Both the position numbers and the translations under genes were made by a program. Below are positions 33,333 to 50,721 of a stretch of 64,000 nt of DNA, one piece after another. Numbering within the stretch: position 1 is the stretch's first letter; every line of letters begins with the position of its first letter. Origin of the DNA: Iocasia fonsfrigidae (lineage in GTDB: Bacteria > Bacillota > Halanaerobiia > Halanaerobiales > DTU029); contig NZ_CP046640.1 in NCBI RefSeq assembly GCF_017751145.1, forward strand, positions 3,576,137-3,640,136, read 5' to 3'. The notes under the pieces were generated by a model that had not been told where the DNA came from, searched no databases, and was given only the letters and a program-made list of their open reading frames with translations.

Positions 33333-34847
33333 TTATTTAAATTTATCCCATAAAAGTGATAATGCGTCAATAGTTTCTCTATACAAAGAATATTTCTTAT
33401 CATAAACTTCTTTATTATCTGGATTAGGATAACAAGTATAAGCTACTTCTACCATAGAATTTGCAGCATCTTTATATGATTCAAATTTATTTGTTGCAAT
33501 TCCAGCACAAATCGCTGCACCCAATGTACCTAACTCTGTACTAGTTGTAACTTCAATAGGTATTTGAAGAATATCTGCAAATATCTGTACCCATACTTTC
33601 GAACGAGCCGCACCTCCCGCAATTCTTATAGCTTTAGGAGCTTTTCTATATGCCATTAGCTTGTCTAAGTGTGCTTTATGACAGAATACTACACCCTCAT
33701 ATATAGCTCTTAAGATATGTGCTTTAGTATGCCATCCATTTAAACCAAGGAAACATGATTTTGCAGTTACATCTACATTTGTACCAAATAAAAATGGTAA
33801 GAAAATAATATTAAACTCATCAGCTGATACACTTTCAACATATTCATTTGAATAATCGTATACAGATTTATTATCTTCTAAACCTTGATTTTTTTCTTCA
33901 CCCAAAAATTGAGAAACAAACCACTCCAAATTACTTGCAGAAGTTGGACTTGCTTCTGTCGTTAGCCAATATCCTTCCATGCAATATAACGAAGTCATAA
34001 ATAAATCTTTCGAAACTATAGGTTCTTTACTTATATATTCATTGATGCTCCATGTTCCCGCAACTATACATAGTTTTTCTTCATCTGCAATACCTGTTGC
34101 AATAGCACATGAATCAATATCAAATAATCCTCCAGCTACAGGTGTTCCTTCCTTTAATCCTGTTAGCTTTGCAACTTCTTCTGTTACATACCCAAAAATC
34201 TCTGAAGAATATTTTATTGGTGGCAATAATTCTAAAACATCTTCTATGTCAAACTCTTGTAATAAATTATTATCATATTTAACATCTTTTACGTTCATTA
34301 AATTCGTACCTGAGATATCTGTTATTTCTGCATGAGCTTCACCAGTCAAACAATATCTTATATAATCCTTGCACATAAATACCCATTTTGTATTTTCTAA
34401 TATTTGTGGTTTATTATCTTTAAACCATGACAATAAGGCAACAGGTTGTCCAGCCCAAATTGACTGCATTGTCTTTGGTAAAACTTTTTCAAAAGTACCA
34501 TCAGAATACCACTTTTCTACATAATCATTTGCTCTAGTATCAGTAGAAATAATTCCATTATACGCTGGCTTTCCTTCTTTATCAACTAAATACATACCAT
34601 TACCATGACCTGTAGTTGCAATTCCAACTATATTTTCAGAATTAATACCAGATTTATTAATAACTTCTTTTATTGCACTTACATTAGCTTGCCACATCTC
34701 ATTCATATTTCTTTCAGTAAATCCAGGTGCTGGCATGATCATTTCAGTTTTACAGCTTGCCACTGCAACTTCTTTTCCTTCCAAATCATATAGCGCAGCT
34801 TTTGACATCGTCCCACCATTATCAATACCTAATAAATACTTTTGCAA
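33333..34847 (-). CDS. FGGY carbohydrate kinase, LyxK-like
   Basis: A 504-residue sugar kinase. N-terminal LLGIDNGGTMSKAALYD phosphate loop, GIATTGHGNGMYLVD, AGGLFDIDSCAIATGI, the FGGY region EASPTSASNLEWFVSQF, LPFLFGTNVD and the C-terminal IRIAGGAARSKVWVQIFADI ATP site. It matches L-xylulokinase (LyxK) better than glycerol or xylulose kinases. It should phosphorylate a ketose made by the SDR or released by the EIIC. The start is TTG 34847 with GGGAG 8 nt upstream. Last gene of the island-2 operon. Confidence 0.87.
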   Translation of the reverse strand: MQKYLLGIDNGGTMSKAALYDLEGKEVAVASCKTEMIMPAPGFTERNMNEMWQANVSAIKEVINKSGINSENIVGIATTGHGNGMYLVDKEGKPAYNGIISTDTRANDYVEKWYSDGTFEKVLPKTMQSIWAGQPVALLSWFKDNKPQILENTKWVFMCKDYIRYCLTGEAHAEITDISGTNLMNVKDVKYDNNLLQEFDIEDVLELLPPIKYSSEIFGYVTEEVAKLTGLKEGTPVAGGLFDIDSCAIATGIADEEKLCIVAGTWSINEYISKEPIVSKDLFMTSLYCMEGYWLTTEASPTSASNLEWFVSQFLGEEKNQGLEDNKSVYDYSNEYVESVSADEFNIIFLPFLFGTNVDVTAKSCFLGLNGWHTKAHILRAIYEGVVFCHKAHLDKLMAYRKAPKAIRIAGGAARSKVWVQIFADILQIPIEVTTSTELGTLGAAICAGIATNKFESYKDAANSMVEVAYTCYPNPDNKEVYDKKYSLYRETIDALSLLWDKFK

Positions 34848-34881
34848 TCATATCACTCCCTAATTAAATTGTATAATTAAT

Positions 34882-36144
34882 TTATGAAAATAGCATTGAT
34901 AATCTAATAAATAACCATCCTAAAGGTGATGTCGCACCACCAACTAAACTTGTCATTCCTGTAGATTCTTGTACTCCTTCTGGAAGAGAAACATTAGCAA
35001 TTTCTGCCGCCTTAGTAAAATGGACAGCAATATCACTACCTGCATATAAAATTAAAGTTAATATAACAAGTCCACTTATAAATATTCTAAATATGTTTCT
35101 CTTACAATAAGGTGTTACCATTGGTATTAAAAATACTAATGAAGCTAAATCCACAAATGGTAATACTTTATTTCCAGGTAAAATTACTGCTAACAACAAT
35201 GCCGCAGGTATCATAAGCAATCCTGTTGCTAATACTGCTGGATCTCCAACTAAAAGCGCTGTGTCTAATCCAATATAGAATTCTCTGTTTGGAAATCTTT
35301 TTTTCAATGAAGTTTCTGCTGCATCTCTAACTGTTACCAATCCATCTACAAGTACATTTATCATTGCAGGTAATAAAACCATTACAGCAGCAACCTTTAT
35401 ACCAAGTGTCAAAATTTTTGTAACATTAAATCCAGCTAATATTCCTAATAATACCCCTAAAATTGTACCTAAAGTCAATGGCTCACCCACAATACCAAAT
35501 TTATTGTTAATTGTTTCGGGATTTGCTTCTATTTTCCGTAATCCTGGTATTTTTCCAATAATCCAATTTATTAATATACCTATAGGAGCATATACAGCAG
35601 AAGTAGCATGTGCAAATGAAATACCTTTTAAGTCAAATTCTTTTTGAATTCTTGGAGCAGTTTTATCCGCTATAACCAGAACTATAATAAATGTTATTAA
35701 ACAGCTTATAGTTGCAATCAATATACTGTTTGTTACTGCATATACAACACCACCAGTTAATAAAAAATGCCAGTAGTTAAAAATATCAATATTAACCGAT
35801 TTAGTTAAATTAAGTAATAACATAATAATATTTATACCTAAGGCGCCAAAAACAACAAATGGAACAATCGGTGATCCCCAACCAATAGTTGCACCTACTG
35901 GCCACCCAGAATCTATAACAGTAAGATTCAATCCAAATCTTTCAACCATAGCTTGAGCTGCAGGTCCTAAACTATTAAGTAATAAACCTATAACCAAACT
36001 GATACCCTCAAACCCAATTCCAATTAACATACCTGCTTTGAATGCTTTACCAACTTTAACCCCAAATATTAAAGCAAGCAAAAAGAAAATCACTGGCATC
36101 ATTACCGATGGCCCCATACTAATAAGTGAATTGATAATTATCAT
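34882..36144 (-). CDS. PTS galactitol-type EIIC, no IIA/IIB partner nearby
   Basis: A 420-residue membrane protein with about ten helices and the GatC/SgcC family segments PVIFFLLALIFGVKVGKAF, GWPVGATIGWGSPIVPFVVF, DKTAPRIQKEFDL, GISFAHATSAVYAPIG, KKRFPNREFYIGLD and GDPAVLATGL. Normally EIIA and EIIB phosphorylate the sugar on import. Neither gene is in the operon or window, but a sugar kinase follows 34 nt later. It may act as a facilitator or borrow distant IIA/IIB (inference). GGGAGG sits before ATG 36144. Confidence 0.88.
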   Translation of the reverse strand: MIIINSLISMGPSVMMPVIFFLLALIFGVKVGKAFKAGMLIGIGFEGISLVIGLLLNSLGPAAQAMVERFGLNLTVIDSGWPVGATIGWGSPIVPFVVFGALGINIIMLLLNLTKSVNIDIFNYWHFLLTGGVVYAVTNSILIATISCLITFIIVLVIADKTAPRIQKEFDLKGISFAHATSAVYAPIGILINWIIGKIPGLRKIEANPETINNKFGIVGEPLTLGTILGVLLGILAGFNVTKILTLGIKVAAVMVLLPAMINVLVDGLVTVRDAAETSLKKRFPNREFYIGLDTALLVGDPAVLATGLLMIPAALLLAVILPGNKVLPFVDLASLVFLIPMVTPYCKRNIFRIFISGLVILTLILYAGSDIAVHFTKAAEIANVSLPEGVQESTGMTSLVGGATSPLGWLFIRLSMLFS

Positions 36145-36226
36145 AAGAATACCTCCCTTTTTGTCTAACAAATAATTCTTGTGATTTTTTCATTATTTTG
36201 TAAAAACATCCTAATTTAAAAGGATT

Positions 36227-36279
36227 CTCCCGATTATTTAGAATTAAATAATAACTTTTGCACAAAATTATATCGGGAG
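36227..36279 (-). other. Long-loop inverted repeat between aldolase and EIIC genes
   Basis: CTCCCGAT and ATCGGGAG pair across a 37-nt AT-rich loop inside the 180-bp gap. It could be an RNA processing or stabilising stem inside the operon. No T-run follows. Confidence 0.4.
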
Positions 36280-36323
36280 CAATTCCTTTCAAACTATCTA
36301 ATCAGTAAATGGAATTTAAAAAA

Positions 36324-37187
36324 TTAATACCTATTATTTGATCCAAACAATAATATTTTTGCCTCAATAGTTTCTTTCATAGCTTTTGTAGGCTCTTCAT
36401 ATGCCATATGCGGCCACATTGACATATTATCTGTGCTATTAAGTTTCTCTTTCATAGCAGTAAAGAATGCATTCAATATCTCTGAGAAAATATTTATTTT
36501 GCAAATACCATTTTTTGCTGATTTCTCAATCATATTATCTGGTGTTCCAGAACCGCCATGCATAACCAATGGTACAGTAGATACCTGATTTAATTCTTTC
36601 AATAATTTAATATCAAGTTCTGGTTTTGCAACATAAACCCCATGGGCTGTTCCAATAGATACTGCTAATGCATCTACTTCTGTTTCCTTTATAAAATATT
36701 CCATTTCTTTTGGATCAGTAAGCGTACTTTTGTGTTCTCCTTCTGATTCAGAGCATCCTACTATACCATCTCCAACATGTCCCAATTCAGCTTCTACTGA
36801 AACTCCATACTCATGAGCATAATCTACCACTTCTTTTGTTTTCTTAATATTCTCTTCTAGTGGTAGTACAGACCCATCAAACATAACAGAAGAATACCCT
36901 TGACTAATTGCCTTCTTAATAATTTCAGAATTTGTAGCATGATCTAAATGAATACAAACTGGCACTGTTGCTTTTTCTGCAATTGTCTTCATCGTAACAG
37001 CTAAATGGTCAAATTGATCATCAGTTAAATCTGGTTTTAAACCCATTAAAATTACTGGTGATCTCAACTCTTCTGCAACATCCACTACTGAGCTAACCAT
37101 ATTGTAGTTGCTAGTGTCAAAAGCTGGAACTGCATACTGTTTTTTGCGCGCATCTCCTAAAATTTCTTTCAATGAAACTAATCCCAT
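36324..37187 (-). CDS. Class II aldolase (fructose/tagatose-bisphosphate type)
   Basis: A 287-residue zinc aldolase. Visible are VPAFDTSNYNM, the zinc site CIHLDHATNSE, EAELGHVGDG, ALAVSIGTAHGVYV, MHGGSGTPDNM and NIFSEILNAFF. The family splits ketose 1-phosphates or 1,6-bisphosphates to dihydroxyacetone phosphate and an aldehyde. It lacks clear GatY-type identity. In this operon it likely splits the product of the FGGY kinase. GGAG lies before the ATG; the gap to the SDR gene is 24 nt. Confidence 0.88.
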   Translation of the reverse strand: MGLVSLKEILGDARKKQYAVPAFDTSNYNMVSSVVDVAEELRSPVILMGLKPDLTDDQFDHLAVTMKTIAEKATVPVCIHLDHATNSEIIKKAISQGYSSVMFDGSVLPLEENIKKTKEVVDYAHEYGVSVEAELGHVGDGIVGCSESEGEHKSTLTDPKEMEYFIKETEVDALAVSIGTAHGVYVAKPELDIKLLKELNQVSTVPLVMHGGSGTPDNMIEKSAKNGICKINIFSEILNAFFTAMKEKLNSTDNMSMWPHMAYEEPTKAMKETIEAKILLFGSNNRY

Positions 37188-37211
37188 AATTGTTCACTCC
37201 TTTTTTATTAT

Positions 37212-37961
37212 TTACCTCATCAACATTCCACCAGTAACATCTATTGTGGCACCAGTGATATAATCTGCTTTATCTGATGCAAGAAAAGCAACTGTATACG
37301 CTACTTCTTCTGGCTCAGATATTCTTTTCAAAGGAATTCTATCAATATATTTTTCTGGATTATCTCCAATCATAGATGTTCTCATAATACCGGGTGCTAC
37401 TGCAGTTACATTTATTCCATATTTGGCTACTTCTCTAGCTAGAGAAACCGTAAAAGTAACTAGTCCACCTTTTGAAGCCGCATAATGAGCATGACCACTA
37501 GTTGACCCGTGAAAAGCAGCCTGAGAAACAATATTCACAATTTTACCCTTACTTTTTCTTTCTATTAAATGATTAACCATTTTTTTAGATAACATAAAAG
37601 GTCCTTCAAGATTAACTTTTAAAGTTCTTCTAAAATCTTTTACTTCCATATCTTTAACATAAGCTTTAGGCCAAACTCCTGCACAATTTACAAGAATATC
37701 TACTTTACCATATACTTCATTAGCTTTATTAAATATGTTGTCTATATCGTTTTCATCACTAATATTTCCATATAAAGATATGGCTTTACTTTCATATTTT
37801 TTATTAAGTGATTCAACAAATTCCATCACCTTTCTTTCATCAACTATATAATTTATCATTACATTAGCACCTTCAGCAGCTAAAACTTCTGATATGGCAG
37901 CACCAAGCCCACCACCTCCTCCAGTAACTATTGCAACTTTGCCCGAAAGATTAAAATCCAT
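37212..37961 (-). CDS. Short-chain dehydrogenase/reductase
   Basis: A 249-residue classical SDR: cofactor loop KVAIVTGGGGGLGAAISEVL, NCAGVWPKAYV, the Ser of NIVSQAAFHGS, catalytic Tyr/Lys in YAASKGGLVTFTVSLA and the C-terminal YITGATIDVTGGML. It oxidises or reduces a polyol or sugar with NAD(P). Gene order suggests oxidation of an imported polyol to a ketose before phosphorylation. Spacing to the neighbours is 17-24 nt. Confidence 0.88.
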   Translation of the reverse strand: MDFNLSGKVAIVTGGGGGLGAAISEVLAAEGANVMINYIVDERKVMEFVESLNKKYESKAISLYGNISDENDIDNIFNKANEVYGKVDILVNCAGVWPKAYVKDMEVKDFRRTLKVNLEGPFMLSKKMVNHLIERKSKGKIVNIVSQAAFHGSTSGHAHYAASKGGLVTFTVSLAREVAKYGINVTAVAPGIMRTSMIGDNPEKYIDRIPLKRISEPEEVAYTVAFLASDKADYITGATIDVTGGMLMR

Positions 37962-37978
37962 ATTTTCCCTCCTAACTG

Positions 37979-39052
37979 TTATTTTTTAAAAATCCACTTA
38001 TCTTTTACTTGATTATAAATATCTTTATTTACAACAAATCTTGATTCTTGGTTTCCAATAACTTTTACCATCTCTTTAGATAGCAAAATTGGTGAATTTA
38101 TAAAAGCATCTTTAGTTCCTCCTGCCAAATGTGGAGTTACAGTTGCATTTTCAAGTGTTACTAAAGGATACTCTTTTCCTGGTGGCTCTTCATCAAAAAC
38201 ATCTAATGCCGCCCCTACAATCTTTCCAGCTTTCAAAGCTTCATATAATGCTTTTTCATCTATTAATCCTGATCTAGCTGAATTGATAATATAAGCTGTT
38301 GGTTTCATCAAATTAATTAATTCTTCATTTATAAGCTTTTCTGTTTCCTTTGTTAATCTAGCATGCAATGTTACAAAATCAGAAACTTGCATCAGTTCTT
38401 TAAGACTAAGCATTTTTATCCCATCTATAGGGTCTTTCAAATACGGATCATAAGCAACTATATCCATTTCAAATCCTTTTAATCTTTGAGCAACTTTTTG
38501 TCCTATTTGCCCCAACCCTATAATTCCTACTGTTTTATATGATAAATCTGGAACAGAATCAGCATTAAAGTAATCTCTTACCCATTCCCCTTTTTTTAAT
38601 TCCAAATGACTTTTAGCAATATTTCTACATTCTGATATCAATAAACCTACTGTGAAATCTGCAACAGCATTAGCATTTCTTCCTGGAGTATTCATTACAA
38701 CTATATTTTTTTCATTTGCATAATTTACGTTTATATTTTCATATCCACCTCTAAGTACACCAATCATCTTTAGGTTATTGCAATTATCTATTAGTCGTTT
38801 TGTAATAGGACAAAATTGTGTAATAATAATATCTGCATCTTTAGTTGCATCTAATATATATTGTCCTGGTTCATATGCTTCACTACCACCAGTTTCAACC
38901 ATAAGATTTATATTTTGTAATTCTTCATAACTTGCCAAATCCCACTGAATAGTTTCAACCCCAATCCCTTGATCTTCAAACCCTTTAAAACCTGTTTTAA
39001 TATATTCTTGGGGTATCAACAAATCACCTATGCCCATTATTTTCGCACTCAC
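37979..39052 (-). CDS. 2-hydroxyacid dehydrogenase, SerA-like (island 2)
   Basis: A 357-residue D-2-hydroxyacid dehydrogenase, with Rossmann loop TVGIIGLGQIGQKVAQRL, Arg in INSARSGLIDEKAL, Glu in DVFDEEPP and His in TPHLAGGTKDAF. An N-terminal extension and the GVLRGGYENINVNYA segment set it apart from the paralogue at 7.0 kb, so it is not a duplicate. The start is GTG 39052 with AGAGGTG upstream. It is the first gene of the operon. The substrate is unknown, presumably an acid linked to the aldolase product. Confidence 0.86.
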   Translation of the reverse strand: MSAKIMGIGDLLIPQEYIKTGFKGFEDQGIGVETIQWDLASYEELQNINLMVETGGSEAYEPGQYILDATKDADIIITQFCPITKRLIDNCNNLKMIGVLRGGYENINVNYANEKNIVVMNTPGRNANAVADFTVGLLISECRNIAKSHLELKKGEWVRDYFNADSVPDLSYKTVGIIGLGQIGQKVAQRLKGFEMDIVAYDPYLKDPIDGIKMLSLKELMQVSDFVTLHARLTKETEKLINEELINLMKPTAYIINSARSGLIDEKALYEALKAGKIVGAALDVFDEEPPGKEYPLVTLENATVTPHLAGGTKDAFINSPILLSKEMVKVIGNQESRFVVNKDIYNQVKDKWIFKK

Positions 39053-39198
39053 AATATCACCTCTATATGTTCATATTTTTGCTTTTATCTTTCTTTTTTA
39101 TATGTATATTATCGTTTTTTAATCATAATATCACCTCTATATGTTCATATTTTGTTTCATATTCCTCTCATGCATATATATTATCATTTTTTAATCAT
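39053..39198. repeat. 74-bp tandem duplication upstream of the island-2 operon
   Basis: The unit starting AATATCACCTCTATATGTTCA and ending TTTTTTAATCAT occurs at 39053 and again at 39127, slightly diverged in the middle. Each copy includes the GAGGTG ribosome site and an ATATG-TT-CATAT near-palindrome. The remaining gap to 39462 is AT-rich without a gene. Confidence 0.75.
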
Positions 39199-39423
39199 AA
39201 TTACAACAAATTTTCCAATAAAATAGCTATAAATCTATATAATTAATATAATTTTTTATTATTTGATTAATTTATTGTTATGTTTTGATTGTTTATGTTC
39301 CTCTTTCCTATATCTAATGATAATTCTATTTTAATATTTAATAAATATTTTAGCCAATCATTAACTCTACCAAAATATACTCATAATTTCATATTTTTTA
39401 TTTAATTACTGGCTAATAAATGA

Positions 39424-39429
39424 TATAAT
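39424..39429 (+). promoter_or_regulatory. Probable -10 box of the deoR-type gene
   Basis: TATAAT 34 bp before the start, with only a weak TTTAAT at the -35 position. AAGGAGG follows at 39449-39455 as ribosome site. Confidence 0.4.
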
Positions 39430-39462
39430 GGTTACAAAAGATTTGTTAAGGAGGCTCTAAAC

Positions 39463-40230
39463 TTGAAATTACAACGTATAGAAAAAATAAAAGAATACAT
39501 AAAACTACATAGAAACTGCACTTCAAAACAATTGTGTGATATTTTTAATGTATCCATGGCCACTATGCGTAGAGATATTAATGAACTAGCTAAAAGAGGC
39601 GTCGTTAAAAAAGTTTATGGTGGCGTATCATTTATAGATAATAAAGATAGTAATTATCCAAATAATGTTAAATTTTCGGAAAAACTCGACAGAATCGGCA
39701 AACAAGCAGCTTCACTAGTGGAAGATGGCGATATCATTCTTATTAGTTCAGGTACTACAACTTACCACATGATACCTCATTTAAGAAATAAAAAAAATCT
39801 TACAGTAATTACAAACAATGTTTTGATCATAACTGAAGCATTAAAATATAATAACTTTCGCTTAATTGTAATCGGAGGTGATCTACAAAGAAATACCAAT
39901 TCAATAATTAGTCTAGATGCTGTTAATTTATTAGAAAAAGTTAATGCCCATAAACTCTTTATGGGAACTAATGCATTATCGTTAACTGCTGGTTTAACGA
40001 ATTCTTCATTTATAGAAGCACAAGTAAAACAAACTATGATTAATACAAGCAACAAAACCATTGTACTATTAGATCACAATAAATTTGACGCTGTTTCACT
40101 CTATACTTTTTTACATATTAAAGATCTTGATATTCTTATTACTGATAAAGAACCTGATAAAAAATATATTGAGAATTTTAAAGAGAACAATATTCAACTT
40201 ATTGTTGCTAATGAAAAATCAACTAACTGA
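39463..40230 (+). CDS. DeoR-family transcriptional regulator
   Basis: A 255-residue regulator. The N-terminal winged helix (RIEKIKEYIKLHRNCTSKQL, VSMATMRRDINELAKRGVV, KKVYGGV) is followed by a DeoRC sugar-phosphate sensor with ILISSGTTTYHM and NKTIVLLDHNKFD. The start is TTG 39463, 8 nt after AAGGAGG. It is divergent from the island-2 operon and almost certainly its repressor, probably sensing a phosphorylated intermediate. Confidence 0.9.
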   Translation: MKLQRIEKIKEYIKLHRNCTSKQLCDIFNVSMATMRRDINELAKRGVVKKVYGGVSFIDNKDSNYPNNVKFSEKLDRIGKQAASLVEDGDIILISSGTTTYHMIPHLRNKKNLTVITNNVLIITEALKYNNFRLIVIGGDLQRNTNSIISLDAVNLLEKVNAHKLFMGTNALSLTAGLTNSSFIEAQVKQTMINTSNKTIVLLDHNKFDAVSLYTFLHIKDLDILITDKEPDKKYIENFKENNIQLIVANEKSTN

Positions 40231-42186: not shown

Positions 42187-43800
42187 TTAATCAACATATT
42201 TTTTTAGAGTTGCTCTAACTGCACCCTTTGATGCAATTAGTTCTTCAAAATAATTTTCTATAACTTCTCCTAAGCCTACTTCATAAAGATCTATACCAAA
42301 GATTTTAACATTGGATAATATCGGCTTAAGCTGTTCATGAAAAGGTCCCTTATCTCCAAGAGAAATTGATGCAACATAAGGTGTTAATTCCTCTAAAAGA
42401 GGATCTGAACTAAGTTTCATTTTATTGCCATCATCATCAATACCTATTAAATATCTACACCAGCCCGCTAAAACAAGAGGAATAAACTTTAGATCCATTA
42501 TATTTAAATCTTCTCTGCTTATATAGGCTTTTATTGTTTCACCAAAGCGGATTCCTAATTTTTGAGAAGTATCAGTTGCAATTCTTTGTGGTGTATCAGG
42601 CATAAATGGATTTGGAATTCTTACCTTAAGCACTTCGTCAATGAATTTTTTAGGATCAATAATTTTAGGATTTACAACTACAGGCAGGCCCTCTACATAT
42701 CCTATTTTTTCTACAAGGTTTTTTAACTCATGATCTTCCATTTCCTTTGAAATCAAAGTATATCCTAATAAACAACCATATATAGCAAGAGCTGTATGAA
42801 GGGGATTTAGACAAGTGCAAACCTTCATTTTTTCAACTTTATCAACCGTTTCTCTATCTGTGAAAATAATACCAGCCTCTTCAAGATTTGGTCTGCCGTT
42901 AGGAAATAAATCTTCAATAATAAGATATTCTGATTCCTCTGCATTTACAAAAGGAGCTATATAGGTGTTTTTTGATGTAATTACATCCTCTACATCTTCA
43001 AAACCATCCTTTTTAAGCATCTCCCTTACACTCGGATCTGGTCTTGGAGTAATTTTATCAATCATCGTCCATGGAAAGGATACATACTTAGGATCATTGA
43101 TATAAACATCAAAGCCTTCATCTACACATTCTTTTTCTACCCACTTTTCGGCAAAAGCACTAACCGCCTGATAAAGTTTAGTCCCATTATGAGAACAATT
43201 ATCCATACTAACTAAGGCAAGGGGGTTTTTCCCATTTATATATCGTTCATAAACAAGTGCAGCCAATTTACCAATATAGCTTACTGGATTTTGTGGCCCA
43301 TTATTAAAATCCTCTACTACGTCAGATAAATATTCACCCTTAGCATCTTGTAAACTATATCCCTTTTCCGTGATCGTAAAACTTACCATTTGGAGACTTG
43401 GGTTTATAAAAATTTCTTTTAACCGTTTCCAGTTTTCTTCATTCTTTGGATCTACAATTAATGATTCTACAATGCTTGCAATAACTGTCTTTTCAATATG
43501 ACCATCTGCCTTTAAAGTTACAAGAGCACCCAGATTGTCATGAGGCCTATACATTTCATCGATTATTTCATAATCAAAACCCTCTGCAACAATAATTCCC
43601 CTATCACTTTTTCCTTCATTTAAAATACTTTGCTGTACATTTGCTATAAATGCTCTAAAAATATTTCCTGCACCAAAATGAATCCAGTTAGGATTTGCCT
43701 TCGTATTTTCTTTTACTTGCTGAAGATTAAATCTTGGAAGCTTAAACCCTGCTTTTTCCCAGACATCAATATCATTTAAGGCCTTCATATTTAATTTCAT
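42187..43800 (-). CDS. uxuB: Fructuronate reductase / mannitol-dehydrogenase family
   Basis: A 537-residue long-chain polyol dehydrogenase: NWIHFGAGNIFRAFIANVQQ cofactor region, SFTITEKGYSL, LALVSMDNCSHNG, VSFPWTMIDKITPRPD, and CTCLNPLHTALAIYGCLLGY with the catalytic Asn/His. It reduces D-fructuronate (or tagaturonate) to the aldonate. The start ATG 43800 is preceded by GAAGGTGG; a GTG 9 nt earlier overlaps that site. It pairs with uxuA 34 nt upstream. Confidence 0.9.
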   Translation of the reverse strand: MKLNMKALNDIDVWEKAGFKLPRFNLQQVKENTKANPNWIHFGAGNIFRAFIANVQQSILNEGKSDRGIIVAEGFDYEIIDEMYRPHDNLGALVTLKADGHIEKTVIASIVESLIVDPKNEENWKRLKEIFINPSLQMVSFTITEKGYSLQDAKGEYLSDVVEDFNNGPQNPVSYIGKLAALVYERYINGKNPLALVSMDNCSHNGTKLYQAVSAFAEKWVEKECVDEGFDVYINDPKYVSFPWTMIDKITPRPDPSVREMLKKDGFEDVEDVITSKNTYIAPFVNAEESEYLIIEDLFPNGRPNLEEAGIIFTDRETVDKVEKMKVCTCLNPLHTALAIYGCLLGYTLISKEMEDHELKNLVEKIGYVEGLPVVVNPKIIDPKKFIDEVLKVRIPNPFMPDTPQRIATDTSQKLGIRFGETIKAYISREDLNIMDLKFIPLVLAGWCRYLIGIDDDGNKMKLSSDPLLEELTPYVASISLGDKGPFHEQLKPILSNVKIFGIDLYEVGLGEVIENYFEELIASKGAVRATLKKYVD

Positions 43801-43833
43801 GCTAGCCACCTTCTTTCTTTTGGATTATATTTT

Positions 43834-44925
43834 TTAGTCATTAAACCCTAACATTCCTTGCTTAACTGATTTATCAATTGCTTCCCATAAACCGTTTAAA
43901 TATGTTGCTCCTAAAGCTCTATCATATAATCCATAACCTGGCATAGCTTTCTCGCCCCAAATCATTCTTCCATGATCAGGTCTTATAGGTCCTTCCATGC
44001 CAATATCATATAATGCCTTTACAATTTCATACATATCTAAGGAACCATCAGATGAAAGATGTGCTGCCTCATCAAATTTACCTGGCCCGTGATGAACAAG
44101 ATTTCTAATATGAGCAAAGTGTATTCGCCCTTTGAAACTTCTTATAATATCTGGAATATCATTATCAGGGTTAGAACCTAAAGAACCTGTACATATGGTT
44201 AACCCATTATTTTCCACAGAAACTGCATCAAGCATTCTTTGGATATTTTCTTTATTATTTATTATTCTTGGTAGATTAAATACAGACCATGCAGGATCAT
44301 CCATATGAATTGCCATCTTAATTCCATACTTTTGACAGGTAGGCATAATAGCATTTAAAAAATATATAAGATTTTCAAATAATTTTTCTTCATCTACATC
44401 CTTATACATTTCAAATAGTTCTCTTACCTTTCCTAGTCGTTCTGGTTCCCATCCTGGTAGTACAAACCCATTAGAGCTTGCTTCCATTTCCTTAAAAATC
44501 TTATCTGGATCTATTTTATCAATAACCTCTTGGTCATAAGAAAGGACTGTAGAACCATCAGGTCTTACCTTTGCAAGATCAGATCTTGTCCAGTCAAACA
44601 CAGGCATAAAATTATAGCATACTAAATTTATCCCTTCTTCCCCTAAATTTTCAAGAGTTTCAATATAATTATTGATATACTTATCTCTTGTAGGAAGACC
44701 AATCTTAATATCATCATGAATATTCACACTCTCAATACCGCTAACCTCTAACCCTGCTGACTCTACTTCATTTCTCATTGCCTGAATTGCTTCCCTACTC
44801 CACACTTCTCCAGGTTTAGAATCATATAGGGTTGTAATAACACCTACACAACCAGGAATCTGTTTGATCTGTTCTAAAGTCACATTATCATGCTTACTTC
44901 CAAACCATCTTAGCGTCATTTTCAT
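43834..44925 (-). CDS. uxuA: Mannonate dehydratase
   Basis: A 363-residue UxuA. MTLRWFGSKHDNVTLEQIKQ, GIESVNIHDDIKIGLP, GINLVCYNFMPVFDWTRSD, IHMDDPAWSVFNLPRI, CTGSLGSNPDNDIPD, HFAHIRNLVHH and RPDHGRMIWGE hold the metal-binding His/Cys/Asp residues. It dehydrates D-mannonate to 2-keto-3-deoxygluconate. KdgK and KDPG aldolase are not in the window. AAGGAG lies 8 nt before the ATG. Confidence 0.95.
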   Translation of the reverse strand: MKMTLRWFGSKHDNVTLEQIKQIPGCVGVITTLYDSKPGEVWSREAIQAMRNEVESAGLEVSGIESVNIHDDIKIGLPTRDKYINNYIETLENLGEEGINLVCYNFMPVFDWTRSDLAKVRPDGSTVLSYDQEVIDKIDPDKIFKEMEASSNGFVLPGWEPERLGKVRELFEMYKDVDEEKLFENLIYFLNAIMPTCQKYGIKMAIHMDDPAWSVFNLPRIINNKENIQRMLDAVSVENNGLTICTGSLGSNPDNDIPDIIRSFKGRIHFAHIRNLVHHGPGKFDEAAHLSSDGSLDMYEIVKALYDIGMEGPIRPDHGRMIWGEKAMPGYGLYDRALGATYLNGLWEAIDKSVKQGMLGFND

Positions 44926-44942
44926 ATTTACGTCTCCTTATT

Positions 44943-45638
44943 CTAATTACATTCGTTTTCCCTTTCCTTAAAAAATTCAGGATATTTATTAATAAGTTCT
45001 GTCTCTTCCACAAAAATCTTTGACAGATGTTTTTTGATTATATCTACAACCCCTTGAAGATTACCATTACATATTTTTTCTATAACCTCTAAATGCTGTA
45101 CAACTACATTAGAAAGTATTTTTTTATCCCATAAGGACATAAGCCGTATCCTCTTATAATGACCAGACATACTTTGAATAATTTCCCAGCACATGTTTTT
45201 ATCAGTACTTTTAAAAAATACACTATGAAAATTGTCATCATACTTCAAAAAAGACATATAATCATTATCCTTTATACTCTGCTTTTGCATCTCAATACAA
45301 TGCCTTAATATTTGTATATCACTTTCTTTACAGACACTAACAAACAATTTTATAGTATTTTCTTCGAGACTTTCTCTTAGAAATCTTTCTTCTGCAACTC
45401 GTTTTAAATCTATTTTGGAAACAATTGTTCCCTTTTGAGGAATAATATTAACAAGCCCCTCTTTTTCTAATTTAATAAGTGCATCCCTTACTGGCGATCT
45501 ACTTACATTTAATTTTTCAGAAATATCCTTGATGCTCAATGCCTCTCCTGGTTTTAAATTTAATGATATAATATTTTTACGAAGAGTATAATACACATTA
45601 TCTCCAATATTAAAAGATGCTTGATTTGATAACTGCAT
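44943..45638 (-). CDS. GntR-family regulator (FadR subfamily)
   Basis: A 231-residue regulator with an N-terminal winged helix (YYTLRKNIISLNLKPGEALS, LNVSRSPVRDALIKLEKEG, VNIIPQKGTIV) and an all-helical FCD ligand domain with the metal-binding Asp/His set (DDNFHSVFF, HYKRIRLM, QHLEVI). FadR-type regulators control hexuronate genes widely. It lies between uxuA and the Zn-dehydrogenase. The 28-bp palindrome in the dctP2 promoter is a likely target. Confidence 0.9.
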   Translation of the reverse strand: MQLSNQASFNIGDNVYYTLRKNIISLNLKPGEALSIKDISEKLNVSRSPVRDALIKLEKEGLVNIIPQKGTIVSKIDLKRVAEERFLRESLEENTIKLFVSVCKESDIQILRHCIEMQKQSIKDNDYMSFLKYDDNFHSVFFKSTDKNMCWEIIQSMSGHYKRIRLMSLWDKKILSNVVVQHLEVIEKICNGNLQGVVDIIKKHLSKIFVEETELINKYPEFFKERENECN

Positions 45639-45730
45639 ACGCCTACACCCCCTCTTTAATGACTTTGCTAAAATAAAATTCGATTAAATCTATTTAAAGA
45701 TTCAGGATATCTTTCCAAACTTATAACCAA

Positions 45731-46741
45731 TTAAAATGTTAACACAATTTTTCTAAACTTTCTACTAGAAACTACATCAAATGCTTTCTTAATGTCTTTG
45801 AAATTAAAAACATGTGATATCATATCTCCTGCTTGAATAATATCTCTAGCAAATAAGTCAATTACTTTTTCGAATTTATCATGCTGTAATCGAGAGCCAA
45901 TAATATCTAGTTCCTTAGCCGTGATCTTAAATTGTGCAATTTCTGAAACTCTAGTATCAAATCCCATTAACACAACTCTTCCTGCATTACCAACAACATC
46001 TACTAAAAATTCAAAGGACCCAGGGTTACATACTGAGTCAATACAAACTGTTGGTCCATAGTCATTAGAAGCAGCCTGTATCTCCTCCTTTAAAGTTGGA
46101 CTTTTCCCATTAATTGTATAAGCAGCACCCAATCTTTTTGCCTGATCAAGTTTGTCTTCTTCAATATCTACAGCTATAATTTTACAGCCAAAACTTTTAG
46201 CTACTTGTATAATTGTTGAACCTAAAGCACCTGCACCATATACTAATAAAGTATCATCTTCTTGAAGTCTCCCCCTGGCACAAGCTTGAAAAGCAATAGT
46301 AAAGGGTTCAATCAAAACAGCAGTCTTAAAGTCTAGATCTTTTGGAATTAAATATGCTGATGTCTCTGGTACTGTCATATGCTCACGATAACCACCATCT
46401 ATATTGACTCCTCTGACCTTTAAATCGACACAAACATTATCTCTACCATGTTTGCATGCATAACACATATTACAGCTTTCGGTCTGTTTAATAATCACAT
46501 GATCTCCAACTTCAAATCTCGTAACAGAGTTCGCAATTTCTTGAACTATCCCTGTTACTTCATGGCCAAGAATTCTAGGGTAGCTTGCAACTGGAGACTT
46601 CCCTAAATAAATACTAATATCACTACCACAAATACCAGCAGCTTTAACTTTTATAAGTATTTCGTTATCCTTTTCTAGTTTTACTTCTGGAATTTCAACA
46701 ACAGCTATCTTATTAGGTTCCTCAACTCTCAATGCTTTCAT
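45731..46741 (-). CDS. Zn-dependent alcohol dehydrogenase (RspB/LgoD-like)
   Basis: A 336-residue medium-chain dehydrogenase. The catalytic zinc site is ICGSDISIY with GHEVTGIV; the structural zinc Cys are in CNMCYACKHGRDNVC; the cofactor loop is LLVYGAGALGSTIIQVAKSF. It resembles RspB and L-galactonate/L-gulonate 5-dehydrogenases, which make tagaturonate or fructuronate, the UxuB substrates. That route fits the operon. ATG 46741 is preferred, with GAGGAGG 7 nt upstream. Confidence 0.85.
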   Translation of the reverse strand: MKALRVEEPNKIAVVEIPEVKLEKDNEILIKVKAAGICGSDISIYLGKSPVASYPRILGHEVTGIVQEIANSVTRFEVGDHVIIKQTESCNMCYACKHGRDNVCVDLKVRGVNIDGGYREHMTVPETSAYLIPKDLDFKTAVLIEPFTIAFQACARGRLQEDDTLLVYGAGALGSTIIQVAKSFGCKIIAVDIEEDKLDQAKRLGAAYTINGKSPTLKEEIQAASNDYGPTVCIDSVCNPGSFEFLVDVVGNAGRVVLMGFDTRVSEIAQFKITAKELDIIGSRLQHDKFEKVIDLFARDIIQAGDMISHVFNFKDIKKAFDVVSSRKFRKIVLTF

Positions 46742-46889
46742 CACAATTCCTCCTCAACTAGACTTTTACTTTTACTATAATTTTTCTAACTCCATTTACT
46801 AGCCATTTATAGCAGAATAGTCTATGAGATTCATTCGGTTAGACAAGATAAAAGTATCTTAATATAAACAATATTTCCTATGGACATCT

Positions 46890-47903
46890 CTAAAGGAATT
46901 TAATCTCTTCCCAAACACTATCATCCACAAAGATTCCCTTAGCATCATGCTCTTCTCTAAATCTCACGAAATCTTCACCAGGTGTAAAAATTCCCGTTGA
47001 ATCCTCTGATAGCTCTGAACTTTTTATGTGTGTTACAGCTTTTTTAATTGTAGCTGCCATATTCTCCTCTTTATCACTAATTTTCTTAGGATCAATAATA
47101 ATCATAACCTGTGATGCGCCACCACAACTTCCTTTTCCTTTTTTATCTAAATCTGCAGCTCCAATACCATCTGTTAAGATAGAACCTAAAATGTCTAGCA
47201 TAAAAGAAAAACTAGAGCCTTTCCAATATCCTATTGGCATGATTCTCATTGACTCTTCTATTGCACCTGGGTCATCAGTAATATGTCCATCTTTATCAAA
47301 CCCACCTGGAAATGGTAGCTTTTTGTTAGCTAATCTTGTTACTTGTAGTTTTCCATAGGAATATTGTGATATGGCCATGTCTAATTCAATTGCGGGCTCG
47401 CCATCAACACCTGGTACTGCCATTACAAATGGATTGTTTCCTAGCTTACATTCTTTTCCACCCCATGGCGGCATACATGATTCAGTGTTAGTCCACATAA
47501 TGGCAATGTAACCTCGATTAGCAGCATGTAAGCCATACGTACCACCACGCATCCAATGGGTCGTGTTTTTTAAGCCAACCATTCCTATGCCGTATTTATC
47601 CGCAAGTTCCATCCCTTTTTCCACACCATATAAAGCATTCAGAACACCAGGACCCATATTACCGTTATAAACTTGTATTGCACCAAATTCTTTTTCCAAA
47701 GTCGGCTCAGCGTCTACATCAACCCAGCCTTTTTGAATATAATCCACAAAACGGGCAACTCTATTTGTCCCATGTGAGTAAATACCATCATAGGTTGATT
47801 CTGTATGAACTCTAGCACAAGTTTCTGCTTTTTCTTCACTAAGTCCGTATTTTATAAACACTCTTTTAATCTCATTCTTAATTTCTTCAAAGGTTAATCT
47901 CAT
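46890..47903 (-). CDS. Ldh-family NAD(P)H oxidoreductase (YiaK/AllD-like)
   Basis: A 337-residue malate/L-lactate dehydrogenase-family protein (not the Rossmann LDH). It shows IYSHGTNRVARFVDYI, NGNMGPGVLNALYGVEKGM, NTTHWMRGGTYGLHAANRGY, the family Asn-Pro segment KLGNNPFVMAVP, and GSFSFMLDILGSILTDG-type helix. Relatives reduce 2,3-diketo-L-gulonate (YiaK), ureidoglycolate or other 2-keto acids. As in E. coli yia genes it is next to a TRAP transporter. The imported acid is therefore likely a hexonate or keto-hexonate. Confidence 0.87.
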   Translation of the reverse strand: MRLTFEEIKNEIKRVFIKYGLSEEKAETCARVHTESTYDGIYSHGTNRVARFVDYIQKGWVDVDAEPTLEKEFGAIQVYNGNMGPGVLNALYGVEKGMELADKYGIGMVGLKNTTHWMRGGTYGLHAANRGYIAIMWTNTESCMPPWGGKECKLGNNPFVMAVPGVDGEPAIELDMAISQYSYGKLQVTRLANKKLPFPGGFDKDGHITDDPGAIEESMRIMPIGYWKGSSFSFMLDILGSILTDGIGAADLDKKGKGSCGGASQVMIIIDPKKISDKEENMAATIKKAVTHIKSSELSEDSTGIFTPGEDFVRFREEHDAKGIFVDDSVWEEIKFL

Positions 47904-47935
47904 ATTTTAGTCTCCTTTTTATATCATTTTGATTT

Positions 47936-49213
47936 TTAACCGAAAACCATGTTTGGTAAAAACAGCACAACTTGTGGAAAGAATACTAATACTGCCAATA
48001 ATACAATAACAGCTCCTAAAAATAAAATTGATTCTTTTGTATATGTTTCAACTGGACATTGTAATATCGAACATGTTGTATACATTGTAACACCTATAGG
48101 TGGTGTCATTCCCCCCATAGTTACTAAAATCATAAATAAAATACCAAAATGAACGGGATCAAAACCTAAATTTGTTACAATAGGCAAGAAAATTGGTGTT
48201 AAAATCAATACATTTGCAGTTGCTTCCATAAACATACCTACCACAAAAACAAAAGCTAAAATAATAAATAATACAATATACGAATTTGATGATACATTAA
48301 TTATTAAATCTGCTAATGTTTGAGGAACTCTTCCCGTAACCAATGCATAACCAAAAGCATTAGAGCAAATGATAATTAACATAATTACAGCTAAATCTAC
48401 CGAAGTCTGTTTTAAAACCTCAATCATCTTTTTCATTGTCAATTCTTTGTAAACAAACACACCAATAATAAAGGCATATACTACAGCAAACGCACCTGCT
48501 TCAGATGGTGTGAAGATACCAAAACGAATCCCAACAATTAGTATAACAGGAAATAATAAGGCCCATATATTCTCTACTAAGCCTTTTAAAATTTCTAAAA
48601 CCGTTGGTGATTTTTCCATTTCTCTAGCATATTTTCTCTTTCTAGAAATAATATTCACTGTAGTCATAAACACAATCGTCAATAAAACACCGGGTACGAT
48701 TCCTGCTAAAAACAAACGACCTATTGATATTTCACCTGTGACCCCATATAAAATAAGACCAATACTTGGAGGTATTGTAGAGGTAATTAAACCACCCATA
48801 GCTAAGATAGCTGCAGTAAAGCCCTTAGAATACCCTCTTTTTCCCATATCCGGACCAAGGATACGACTTTCCATCGCAGCATCAGCTGTAGCAGAGCCTG
48901 AAATCCCACCCATCAACGTACTGAGAACTACAGAAACCTGAGCAAGACCACCATACATATGTCCCGTAAGTACTGTTGAAAACTTAATAAGTCTCTTAGT
49001 AATTCCAGTTTCATTCATTAAGTTTCCTGCAAGGACAAAGAAAGGGACTGCCAGTAATGAAAAGGATTGGGTACTACTTACCATTCTTTGAGCTACAATT
49101 TGAATAGGCACACCTTCACTAATAAAGAAAGAAAGAGTAGATATTCCAATTGCAAAGGCTACAGGCATCCCTATGGCCAATAGTATCACAAAGCTTATAG
49201 CTAAGATGATCAT
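47936..49213 (-). CDS. dctM: TRAP transporter large permease DctM (second system)
   Basis: A 425-residue DctM: GMPVAFAIGISTLSFF, LLAVPFFVLAGNLMNETGIT, LMGGISGSATADAAMESRI, STIPPSIGLILYGVTG, GIFTPSEAGAFAVVYAF and GGMTPPIGVTMYTTCSI. Compared with the 8 kb paralogue it is clearly divergent, so the two systems carry different ligands. It overlaps the dctQ2 stop by 4 nt. Confidence 0.93.
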   Translation of the reverse strand: MIILAISFVILLAIGMPVAFAIGISTLSFFISEGVPIQIVAQRMVSSTQSFSLLAVPFFVLAGNLMNETGITKRLIKFSTVLTGHMYGGLAQVSVVLSTLMGGISGSATADAAMESRILGPDMGKRGYSKGFTAAILAMGGLITSTIPPSIGLILYGVTGEISIGRLFLAGIVPGVLLTIVFMTTVNIISRKRKYAREMEKSPTVLEILKGLVENIWALLFPVILIVGIRFGIFTPSEAGAFAVVYAFIIGVFVYKELTMKKMIEVLKQTSVDLAVIMLIIICSNAFGYALVTGRVPQTLADLIINVSSNSYIVLFIILAFVFVVGMFMEATANVLILTPIFLPIVTNLGFDPVHFGILFMILVTMGGMTPPIGVTMYTTCSILQCPVETYTKESILFLGAVIVLLAVLVFFPQVVLFLPNMVFG

Positions 49214-49713
49214 ATGGTTTCCCCCCCTCCTTGGTTTTTCTGAATAATACCTTGATAATCATGTTTTATAATGTTGCCAACATATCCTATCAATCTTTTC
49301 ATAACAGTGTATAACATCAGTAAACATCCAACAGGTGCACTAATGGTAACAAAGGAATAACTTATTGGTAATGTATTAAACGTTCTTTGAAAATTGATTA
49401 TTGATAAATTTGTTCCATAATAAATAACAAATATCAAGAAAAACATAATCAATACACTATTAAATAAATAAATTGCATTTCGTATCGGAAGTGAAAACTT
49501 ATTTGCCAATAAATCAACACCCATATGTCGTTTACGGCGCATGGCTAGGTCTGCTCCAATAAAGCAGACCCAGGAAAATGTCAGTTGGGCAAAGTCAACT
49601 GACCAAGACATATCTATACCAAACCATCTCAATGTAGCAGCCGTAAAAACGAGTAATATTAGTATTGAAAGACCTATACATACAGTTATTTCTTCAATAC
49701 GTTGAATTTTCAT
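49210..49713 (-). CDS. dctQ: TRAP transporter small permease DctQ (second system)
   Basis: A 167-residue four-helix protein with DMSWSVDFAQLTFSWVCFIG and RRKRHMGVDLLANKF, the conserved DctQ segments. It lies 21 nt after dctP2 and overlaps dctM2 by 4 nt. Confidence 0.88.
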   Translation of the reverse strand: MKIQRIEEITVCIGLSILILLVFTAATLRWFGIDMSWSVDFAQLTFSWVCFIGADLAMRRKRHMGVDLLANKFSLPIRNAIYLFNSVLIMFFLIFVIYYGTNLSIINFQRTFNTLPISYSFVTISAPVGCLLMLYTVMKRLIGYVGNIIKHDYQGIIQKNQGGGETI

Positions 49714-49734
49714 GTCAAAACCTCGCTTTTAGTA

Positions 49735-50721
49735 TTATCTTCCTAGTTCTTTATCAATTTTATCTTTAAGTTCTCTATATCCTAAATCATCGTAAGTTGA
49801 TTCCGCAGCTGCTTTGAATGCATCAACATCTACAACTTCTATACCAGCATCAGTAATAGTTTGTAAAAATTCTCCATTCTTTTTAATAACAATATCAGAA
49901 GCATATTTACCTGCATTATAAGATTCTTCTGTAAGAATACTTTGATACTCTTCCGGTAACTTTTCAAACCAATTATTAGAAATCACAAGTCCAGTAAGCA
50001 ATTGGAAATGACCTGTTTGAGAAAGGTAATCAGTAACTTCATAAATACTTGAACCTACTGCTGCAGAGTTGTGTACCTCAACACCTTCAATTACCTTCTG
50101 TTGAAGTGCTTGGTACGCCTCTGACCACGGAAGAACTGTAGTATTCGCTCCCATTGCCTCCAGGGACTTCGTTACTACATCAGAACCAGAACTTCTAATA
50201 CGTAATCCATTCAAATCCTCTGGTTTAGTAACCGGTGACTTTGTAAAAAGATTTCTACTACCTTGATAGTAATTAAAAGATAGTACTTTAAATCCATATT
50301 CTTCAAATTCCCCTACTAAGTCTTTATATACTGAGGTTTTCATCAATTTTAAGGCGCCTTCATAATCATTAGCTAAATAAGGTCCTCCTAGAATTCCAAA
50401 ATCTTTAATATAATTGCTCATACGACCCGGATCTGTAATAATCCCAACACCAGCACCAACCTTGGCTTGTTCTAAAACATCTTCATCTGCACCGAGTTGC
50501 GAACCTGAGTATAGTTCCACTGTAACAGCTCCATCTGTTCTTTGTTCAACACTTTTTTTGAACACCTCAAGACCCTTATAAATAGGATCTGCCTCAGTCA
50601 ATACTGTACCTACTTTAAGTACATAACTTTCTCCCTTTGCATCTTTTCCTGTTCCACTACAAGCTGCCAGTGAAATAAGTAAACCTAAAATCAAAATACT
50701 TGCTAATAATTTTTGTTTCAT
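49735..50721 (-). CDS. dctP: TRAP substrate-binding lipoprotein DctP (second system)
   Basis: A 328-residue binding protein with a lipoprotein signal: LLISLAACSGTGKD places the lipobox Cys at about residue 21. Mature motifs are LYSGSQLGADEDVLEQAKVG, LRIRSSGSDVVTKSLEAMGA with the carboxylate-binding Arg, and AYQALQQKVIEGVEVHNSAA. It differs from DctP1, which is secreted without a lipid anchor. AGGAGG precedes the ATG. Its promoter carries a strong repressor-type palindrome. Confidence 0.92.
   Translation of the reverse strand: MKQKLLASILILGLLISLAACSGTGKDAKGESYVLKVGTVLTEADPIYKGLEVFKKSVEQRTDGAVTVELYSGSQLGADEDVLEQAKVGAGVGIITDPGRMSNYIKDFGILGGPYLANDYEGALKLMKTSVYKDLVGEFEEYGFKVLSFNYYQGSRNLFTKSPVTKPEDLNGLRIRSSGSDVVTKSLEAMGANTTVLPWSEAYQALQQKVIEGVEVHNSAAVGSSIYEVTDYLSQTGHFQLLTGLVISNNWFEKLPEEYQSILTEESYNAGKYASDIVIKKNGEFLQTITDAGIEVVDVDAFKAAAESTYDDLGYRELKDKIDKELGR

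Follow-up and report, generated by a model that had tools for sequence, protein, structure and literature searches.

Membrane proteins of the EIIC type are treated as parts of group translocation, and genome annotation counts every EIIC as belonging to the phosphotransferase system (PTS). Among the described systems, the galactitol PTS, GatABC (TC 4.A.5), encoded by the gat operon of Escherichia coli, is the natural point of comparison for the operon considered here, which lies in a stretch of 64,000 nucleotides from the Iocasia fonsfrigidae genome (contig NZ_CP046640.1, positions 3,576,137 to 3,640,136). We refer to this whole stretch as the window. The window operon resembles gat in the fold and family of its EIIC (EIIC-GAT), in a GatY-type class II aldolase and in a DeoR-type regulator. 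It differs in lacking IIA, IIB and GatZ, in having a short-chain dehydrogenase/reductase (SDR) in place of the zinc-dependent alcohol dehydrogenase GatD, and in the addition of an FGGY kinase and a 2-hydroxyacid dehydrogenase (HADH). The EIIC-GAT membrane domain and a host enzyme I (EI) expected of a Gat-type enzyme II are thus present, the cognate IIA and IIB are not encoded with the EIIC, and the set of GatD, GatZ, GatA and GatB that marks a canonical gat operon is missing. The orphan EIIC has probably become a stand-alone importer that feeds an uncharacterised breakdown pathway.

Precedents for such transport come from E. coli. GalABC (EcolC_1640-1642) imports xylose in a ptsI-deleted strain, a process that needs XylA and XylB and was read as phosphorylation-independent facilitated diffusion (PMC10989795), and F340 mutants of GatC import glucose in a ptsGHI deletion (PMC12089948). 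GAT-family EIICs can therefore carry unphosphorylated sugar for a cytosolic kinase, as proposed for the window (PMC10989795, PMC12089948, citing Utrilla 2012). However, GalABC and the mutant GatC are complete PTS systems uncovered by laboratory evolution, whereas the window type appears to be naturally uncoupled, clade-wide and operon-encoded.

Three further E. coli clusters share individual elements. The yia-sgb operon for 2,3-diketo-L-gulonate catabolism also has a LyxK-family kinase (LyxK/YiaP) that acts once a sugar acid or keto-sugar has been taken up without the PTS, but it has a TRAP transporter, a decarboxylase and epimerases where the window has EIIC, aldolase, SDR and HADH, and the two kinases are only 38% identical. 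The autoinducer-2 (AI-2) lsr operon likewise contains an FGGY kinase (LsrK), its thiolase LsrF resembles the class I aldolase found in the enterobacterial version of the operon described below, and dihydroxyacetone phosphate (DHAP) is a plausible product. AI-2 catabolism was considered because of this aldolase and because LsrK is the best match of the kinase in the Protein Data Bank (PDB); it was rejected, since LsrACDB and LsrG are missing and the kinase is far closer to LyxK (38%) than to LsrK (23%). In addition, SDR and HADH have no lsr counterpart. The ydj cluster (YdjI aldolase, YdjH kinase) combines a transporter, a kinase, a class II aldolase, dehydrogenases and a DeoR regulator as the window does, but its kinase belongs to the PfkB family and its transporter is not an EIIC. 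The first-pass annotation of this DNA knew of no described pathway with the gene set of the window, and our own search of the literature, which covered open-licence papers, found none.

The window operon

The operon consists of five intact open genes on the minus strand (33333-39052), transcribed in the order HADH-SDR-aldolase-EIIC-kinase, with a divergent regulator alongside. Gene families were assigned with Pfam and NCBIfam profiles, which agreed. The features are as follows:

33333..34847, minus strand: FGGY carbohydrate kinase, LyxK-like, 504 aa from a TTG start; PF00370/PF02782 (FGGY_N/FGGY_C)
34882..36144, minus strand: GatC-type EIIC, 420 aa from ATG 36144, in a reading frame that reaches TTG 36171; PF03611 (EIIC-GAT)
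36145..36323, minus strand: intergenic region preceding EIIC, with a predicted stem-loop (CTCCCGAT...ATCGGGAG)
36324..37187, minus strand: class II (zinc) aldolase of the GatY/KbaY/FBA family, 287 aa; PF01116 (F_bP_aldolase), 304 bits
37212..37961, minus strand: SDR, 249 aa; PF13561/PF00106 (adh_short)
37979..39052, minus strand: D-2-hydroxyacid dehydrogenase (HADH), 357 aa; PF00389/PF02826 (2-Hacid_dh)
39049..39181, minus strand: imperfect direct repeat in the HADH leader, 74 bp spacing, duplicating the HADH ribosome-binding region
39463..40230, plus strand: divergent DeoR/GlpR-family regulator; PF00455, PF08220

The EIIC scored 269 bits against Pfam EIIC-GAT and 427 bits against TIGR00827, below the cut-off of 542 for the latter model. 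Its start is probably ATG 36144, preceded by GGGAGG, rather than TTG 36171, since the resulting length of 420 aa is that of most relatives. Catalytic motifs are in place in all four enzymes. The aldolase matches its family profile and has the zinc-ligand motifs (HLDHA, GTAHG, MHGGSG), the SDR has the catalytic YAASK at 160, the HADH has GLGQIGQ as its NAD motif together with the Arg, Glu and His regions to be expected (NSARSG, DVFDEEP, PHLAGG), and the kinase shares GGLFD, at 239, with LyxK. A six-frame profile scan of the 64 kb window found no IIA or IIB. The first-pass annotation, which had described an intact GatC-type EIIC without these partners beside a kinase, SDR, aldolase and HADH, was therefore correct in its reading of the genes.

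The orphan EIIC clade and its hosts

A conservation scan with one genome per species yielded 31 loci, 23 of which (L009-L028, L033, L036, L038) group the EIIC, FGGY kinase, SDR, HADH and aldolase with a GlpP-like antiterminator. They are spread over Clostridia, Bacilli, Negativicutes (Selenomonads), Lactobacillus and Enterobacteria. The gene order is GlpP-EIIC-kinase-SDR-aldolase-HADH in Clostridia and Bacilli, class I aldolase-GlpP-kinase-SDR-HADH-EIIC in Enterobacteria and one Lactobacillus, and EIIC-HADH-SDR-kinase-GlpP-aldolase-HADH, with two HADH copies, in Selenomonads; the order in the window differs from all of these. The enterobacterial version occurs in three of 5426 complete E. coli genomes, SE11 included, and in K. 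pneumoniae 176. In none of the 23 operons did six-frame profile scans find a IIA or IIB, so that the gene set whose conservation the first-pass annotation had proposed to examine recurs always without these two proteins. The only IIB anywhere in these stretches, in L010, lies ≈6.3 kb downstream beside an EIIC that is of the lactose/cellobiose type by sequence. By comparison, in a background set of 28 EIIC-GAT loci from an even phylum sample, with IIB sought within the flank read, 27 had an adjacent IIB within ≈1.4 kb, the exception being L177. An apparent further orphan in Lactobacillus (L109/L115) was dropped on account of a divergent IIA/IIB pair. Clostridium carboxidivorans carries a second EIIC without IIA/IIB (L114, 6877-9066), whose sole companions are an SDR and an IclR-type regulator.

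Maximum-likelihood analysis of 57 EIICs places the window protein with those of 22 of the 23 loci in a single clade (100/100), which lies within a group of equal support that contains complete Gat systems. The simplest history would be a single loss of IIA and IIB at the base of this clade. A second clade of lone EIIC-GAT proteins without IIA/IIB (100/100) is found in Halanaerobiales and their neighbours (L113, 7636-9009; L116, 7474-8802; L117, 7350-8684; L118, 7234-8601; L119, 7390-8757; also L035 and L037), flanked, as read from translations, by housekeeping genes for peptidyl-prolyl isomerase, GatCAB amidotransferase, a dCMP deaminase-like protein and an MgtE-like protein.

The AlphaFold model of the window EIIC (pLDDT 85, pTM 0.83) had the Leminorella grimontii GatC structure 9u82, solved with D-xylose, as its best Foldseek match (TM 0.86); VIA-align gave Z = 43.4 for this structure and 27.9 for UlaA (4rp8). 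Orphan EIICs keep the residues that are invariant in canonical GatCs. D303, invariant in both groups, corresponds in the alignment to Asp314 of UlaA, which binds vitamin C (the UlaA numbering in the open frame used for the alignment is shifted by 19). A search for a residue signature of uncoupling showed R282, E286 and K290 to be invariant in the orphans, whereas canonical GatCs have S/A, K/R and mixed residues there. At the published xylose-mutation positions of E. coli GatC, however, there was no matching change, and F340 could not be placed. This retention of the canonical invariant residues including D303, an identity of 54-79% between phyla and the position of the EIIC as the only transporter conserved with the operon all argue against the protein being an exporter, sensor or vestige, with the true importer encoded elsewhere. 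Such a role is suggested by the lone EIIC genes amid housekeeping genes in Halanaerobiales, which would allow for EIIC functions outside sugar operons, but we regard it as very improbable for the orphan clade.

In the single-contig host genome (3.93 Mb), the PTS_IIB and EIIA_2 profiles each match three times. A complete LevR-IIA-IIB-IIC gat operon at 1354-1359 kb accounts for one IIB and two IIAs, and a fructose PTS and a lactose/cellobiose-type PTS account for the rest. The gat region (1.354-1.363 Mb) encodes a LevR-type regulator, IIA, IIB, IIC, an aldolase/epimerase-like gene and EI. It lies 2.25 Mb from the window operon and holds the sole other EIIC-GAT of the genome, which is 42% identical to that of the window. 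EI-like genes adjoin both the gat and the fructose operons, and HPr adjoins the latter. The gatA and gatB genes whose existence the first-pass annotation had left to be checked are thus present, not as orphans co-regulated with the window operon, as would have argued against its proposal, but within a complete operon with its own regulator.

Whole-genome searches of two other hosts found no Gat-type IIA or IIB. In Brevibacillus parabrevis, where the orphan is the single EIIC-GAT, IIB is represented solely by MtlA and a cellobiose-type protein and IIA by MtlF and a regulator. Selenomonas artemidis has only FruA, FruBC and MtlA. Supply of a Gat IIB in trans is therefore not a general explanation. 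One clostridial metagenome-assembled genome likewise had no Gat-type IIA/IIB, but may be incomplete. The Aneurinibacillus thermoaerophilus genome (L105/L039) has no EIIA_2 or PTS_IIB match and retains the orphan EIIC in broken form, along with a GlpP-like remnant; because the EIIC is broken, this host was not counted as evidence.

Import without PTS phosphorylation, as the first-pass annotation had proposed, is strongly supported by this comparison, because a single EIIC clade lacks IIA/IIB, there are hosts without Gat-type IIA/IIB, and each intact orphan EIIC in the clade is found with a cytosolic FGGY kinase. We consider it likely that the orphan EIIC works in this way. Several observations weigh against this conclusion. 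We found no transport or enzyme data for any member of the clade, and the GatC proteins for which uncoupled transport has been published are evolved or deregulated ones from E. coli, with galactitol uptake still PTS-dependent (PMC12089948). The window host itself encodes GatA and GatB, so that cross-talk is possible there, and EI is kept in all 27 host genomes examined. In Selenomonas and Centipeda (L023-L027, ≈8600-8960), a second gene for HPr is found ≈40 bp ahead of the orphan EIIC, an arrangement that may mean PTS coupling or regulation of the kinase or EIIC. Its product has kept His15 (GLHARPA) and by eye has Asp at the Ser46 position; the normal HPr gene adjoins EI elsewhere in these genomes. 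The complete gatABC operon, the universal EI and the second HPr would also be consistent with the EIIC still being a PTS permease that borrowed IIA and IIB, in the window host from the gat operon at 1.35 Mb and elsewhere from fructose, mannitol or cellobiose systems, with the kinase adding a second phosphate or acting on a side product. The two hosts devoid of Gat-type IIA/IIB do not fit this explanation, the absence of both proteins throughout the clade would be odd if they were needed, and a dedicated kinase is always present; such borrowing is, in our estimate, unlikely.

The kinase, aldolase and dehydrogenases

The window kinase matches E. coli LyxK over its full length with 38% identity (377 bits), compared to 26% (139 bits) for XylB and 23% (162 bits) for LsrK, and it groups with LyxK in a quick tree, albeit with long branches (SH-aLRT 95). 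With FGGY N and C domains and greater closeness to LyxK than to XylB or LsrK, it is by sequence a LyxK-type kinase. It is 72-75% identical to the kinases of the clostridial loci; that of the Selenomonads is on another branch (32-34%), which also counts against a uniform reading of the set, since the substrate may vary. The aldolase is 37% identical to E. coli GatY, with YdjI (6ofu) as its best PDB match, and the SDR resembles sugar/polyol dehydrogenases. In Enterobacteria and Lactobacillus, the class II aldolase is swapped for a non-homologous class I enzyme of the LsrF/DhnA type. That two unrelated families replace each other in the set argues for aldol cleavage as a real step of the pathway. 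HADH is as strongly conserved as the rest.

We infer the mode of transport, the substrate, the order of steps and any action of HADH on a released fragment as follows. The EIIC would import a polyol, ketose or sugar acid in unphosphorylated form, independently of the PTS, by facilitated diffusion or ion coupling. The SDR would oxidise the imported substrate, the LyxK-like kinase would phosphorylate the product, and the aldolase would cleave the phosphorylated ketose or keto-acid to form DHAP. HADH would act on a 2-keto or 2-hydroxy acid, which could be the substrate itself or the non-DHAP fragment. For instance, an aldonate could be oxidised to a 5-keto-aldonate, phosphorylated at C6 and split into DHAP and a three-carbon acid, similar to the last steps of inositol catabolism. 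Of the scheme of oxidation, phosphorylation and aldol splitting put forward in the first-pass annotation, the cleavage is supported by the exchange of aldolases; the order of its steps is a proposal.

LyxK-type kinases act on L-xylulose and 3-keto-L-gulonate, and the L-xylulose suggested in the first-pass annotation as a kinase substrate would fit. Related clusters provide a further hint. L142 (5691-11031) combines an orphan EIIC-GAT (33%), a 37% identical FGGY kinase, an SDR and a RuBisCO-like protein near MtnW/OiaX, possibly representing a sugar-acid decarboxylation pathway with a PTS-free EIIC. Other kinase homologues at 37-44% identity stand with different importers: on Phyllobacterium and Shinella plasmids, a 39% homologue occurs with an ABC importer, a DhnA/LsrF-like aldolase and a GlpD-like enzyme, and in G155, a 44% homologue is found beside an MFS transporter and an AraD-like enzyme. 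L140 has the order GlpP-SDR-aldolase-HADH-kinase without an EIIC, and a DcuC carrier further downstream. Uptake of the free compound, oxidation, phosphorylation by a cytosolic FGGY kinase and carbon-carbon cleavage would be the theme common to these clusters. Based on the known substrates of LyxK-type kinases and the OiaX/MtnW-type protein in L142, our best guess for the substrate is a sugar acid or L-pentulose-type compound that gives DHAP; the conserved HADH, together with the L142 variant, makes a sugar acid or keto-acid a reasonable choice.

The imported compound could instead enter a polyol/ketose route, for example from a pentitol via L-xylulose or L-ribulose and C1 phosphorylation to DHAP and glycolaldehyde, with HADH merely clearing glyoxylate or a similar by-product. 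The closeness of the kinase to LyxK among the E. coli enzymes compared, the similarity of the SDR to sugar/polyol dehydrogenases and the GatC fold solved with D-xylose are all consistent with this. However, the conservation of HADH and its two copies in Selenomonads suggest that the main route involves a 2-keto acid, and LyxK-type kinases normally phosphorylate C5, which would not feed a DHAP aldolase. We hold a polyol/ketose route to be possible, but less likely than not.

Regulation and origin of the operon

The window operon has no GlpP-like gene, and the divergent DeoR regulator is its probable repressor. In the relatives, control would be exerted by the GlpP-type antiterminator on a leader terminator. 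A strong terminator hairpin, mostly with a clear T-run, is predicted before the first structural gene in the leaders of the relatives examined, either between the GlpP-like gene and EIIC (L009-L016, L028) or upstream of the class I aldolase (L017, L020, L022), as expected for antitermination. This suggests that GlpP-type antitermination acts outside glycerol metabolism. In its known form, GlpP senses glycerol 3-phosphate, and such a regulator would fit a DHAP-yielding route. The stem-loop before the window EIIC is weaker than these hairpins, without their clear T-run (raw predicted fold of the leader, −38.9 kcal/mol over 193 nt, without shuffle control), and is possibly regulatory. In the HADH leader, both copies of the repeat (39049-39181) carry GAGGTGATATT ahead of an ATG/GTG start, which creates tiny reading frames upstream of the gene.

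The orphan type was present in only one of 101 related genomes, that of the window organism itself. The GC content of the operon is 32%, compared to 36-37% across most of the remainder, and at third codon positions its GC is 0.15-0.22, whereas the immediate neighbours have 0.33. This restricted occurrence and low GC suggest that the operon was acquired from outside, although the uronate genes to its right are also low in GC. These form a hexuronate-type cluster (42187-50721) that, as read from translations, encodes UxuB-like and UxuA-like proteins, a GntR regulator, a zinc alcohol dehydrogenase, a malate/lactate-dehydrogenase-like reductase and a TRAP transporter.

On balance, we favour a history in which a monophyletic branch of EIICs left the PTS to become stand-alone sugar or sugar-acid transporters, with a conserved kinase operon and an undescribed catabolic pathway, and passed by horizontal transfer between Clostridia, Bacilli, Negativicutes and Enterobacteria. 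The apparent novelty is a naturally occurring clade of PTS EIICs turned into stand-alone carriers with a dedicated kinase. If this is true, the clade, having lost its phosphoryl donors and gained a kinase, would be nature's equivalent of the uncoupled GatC mutants obtained by laboratory selection, and would allow direct study of what couples EIIC movement to phosphorylation. The operon also suggests that gut and environmental bacteria, some E. coli and Klebsiella among them, possess a DHAP-yielding pathway that is so far uncharacterised.

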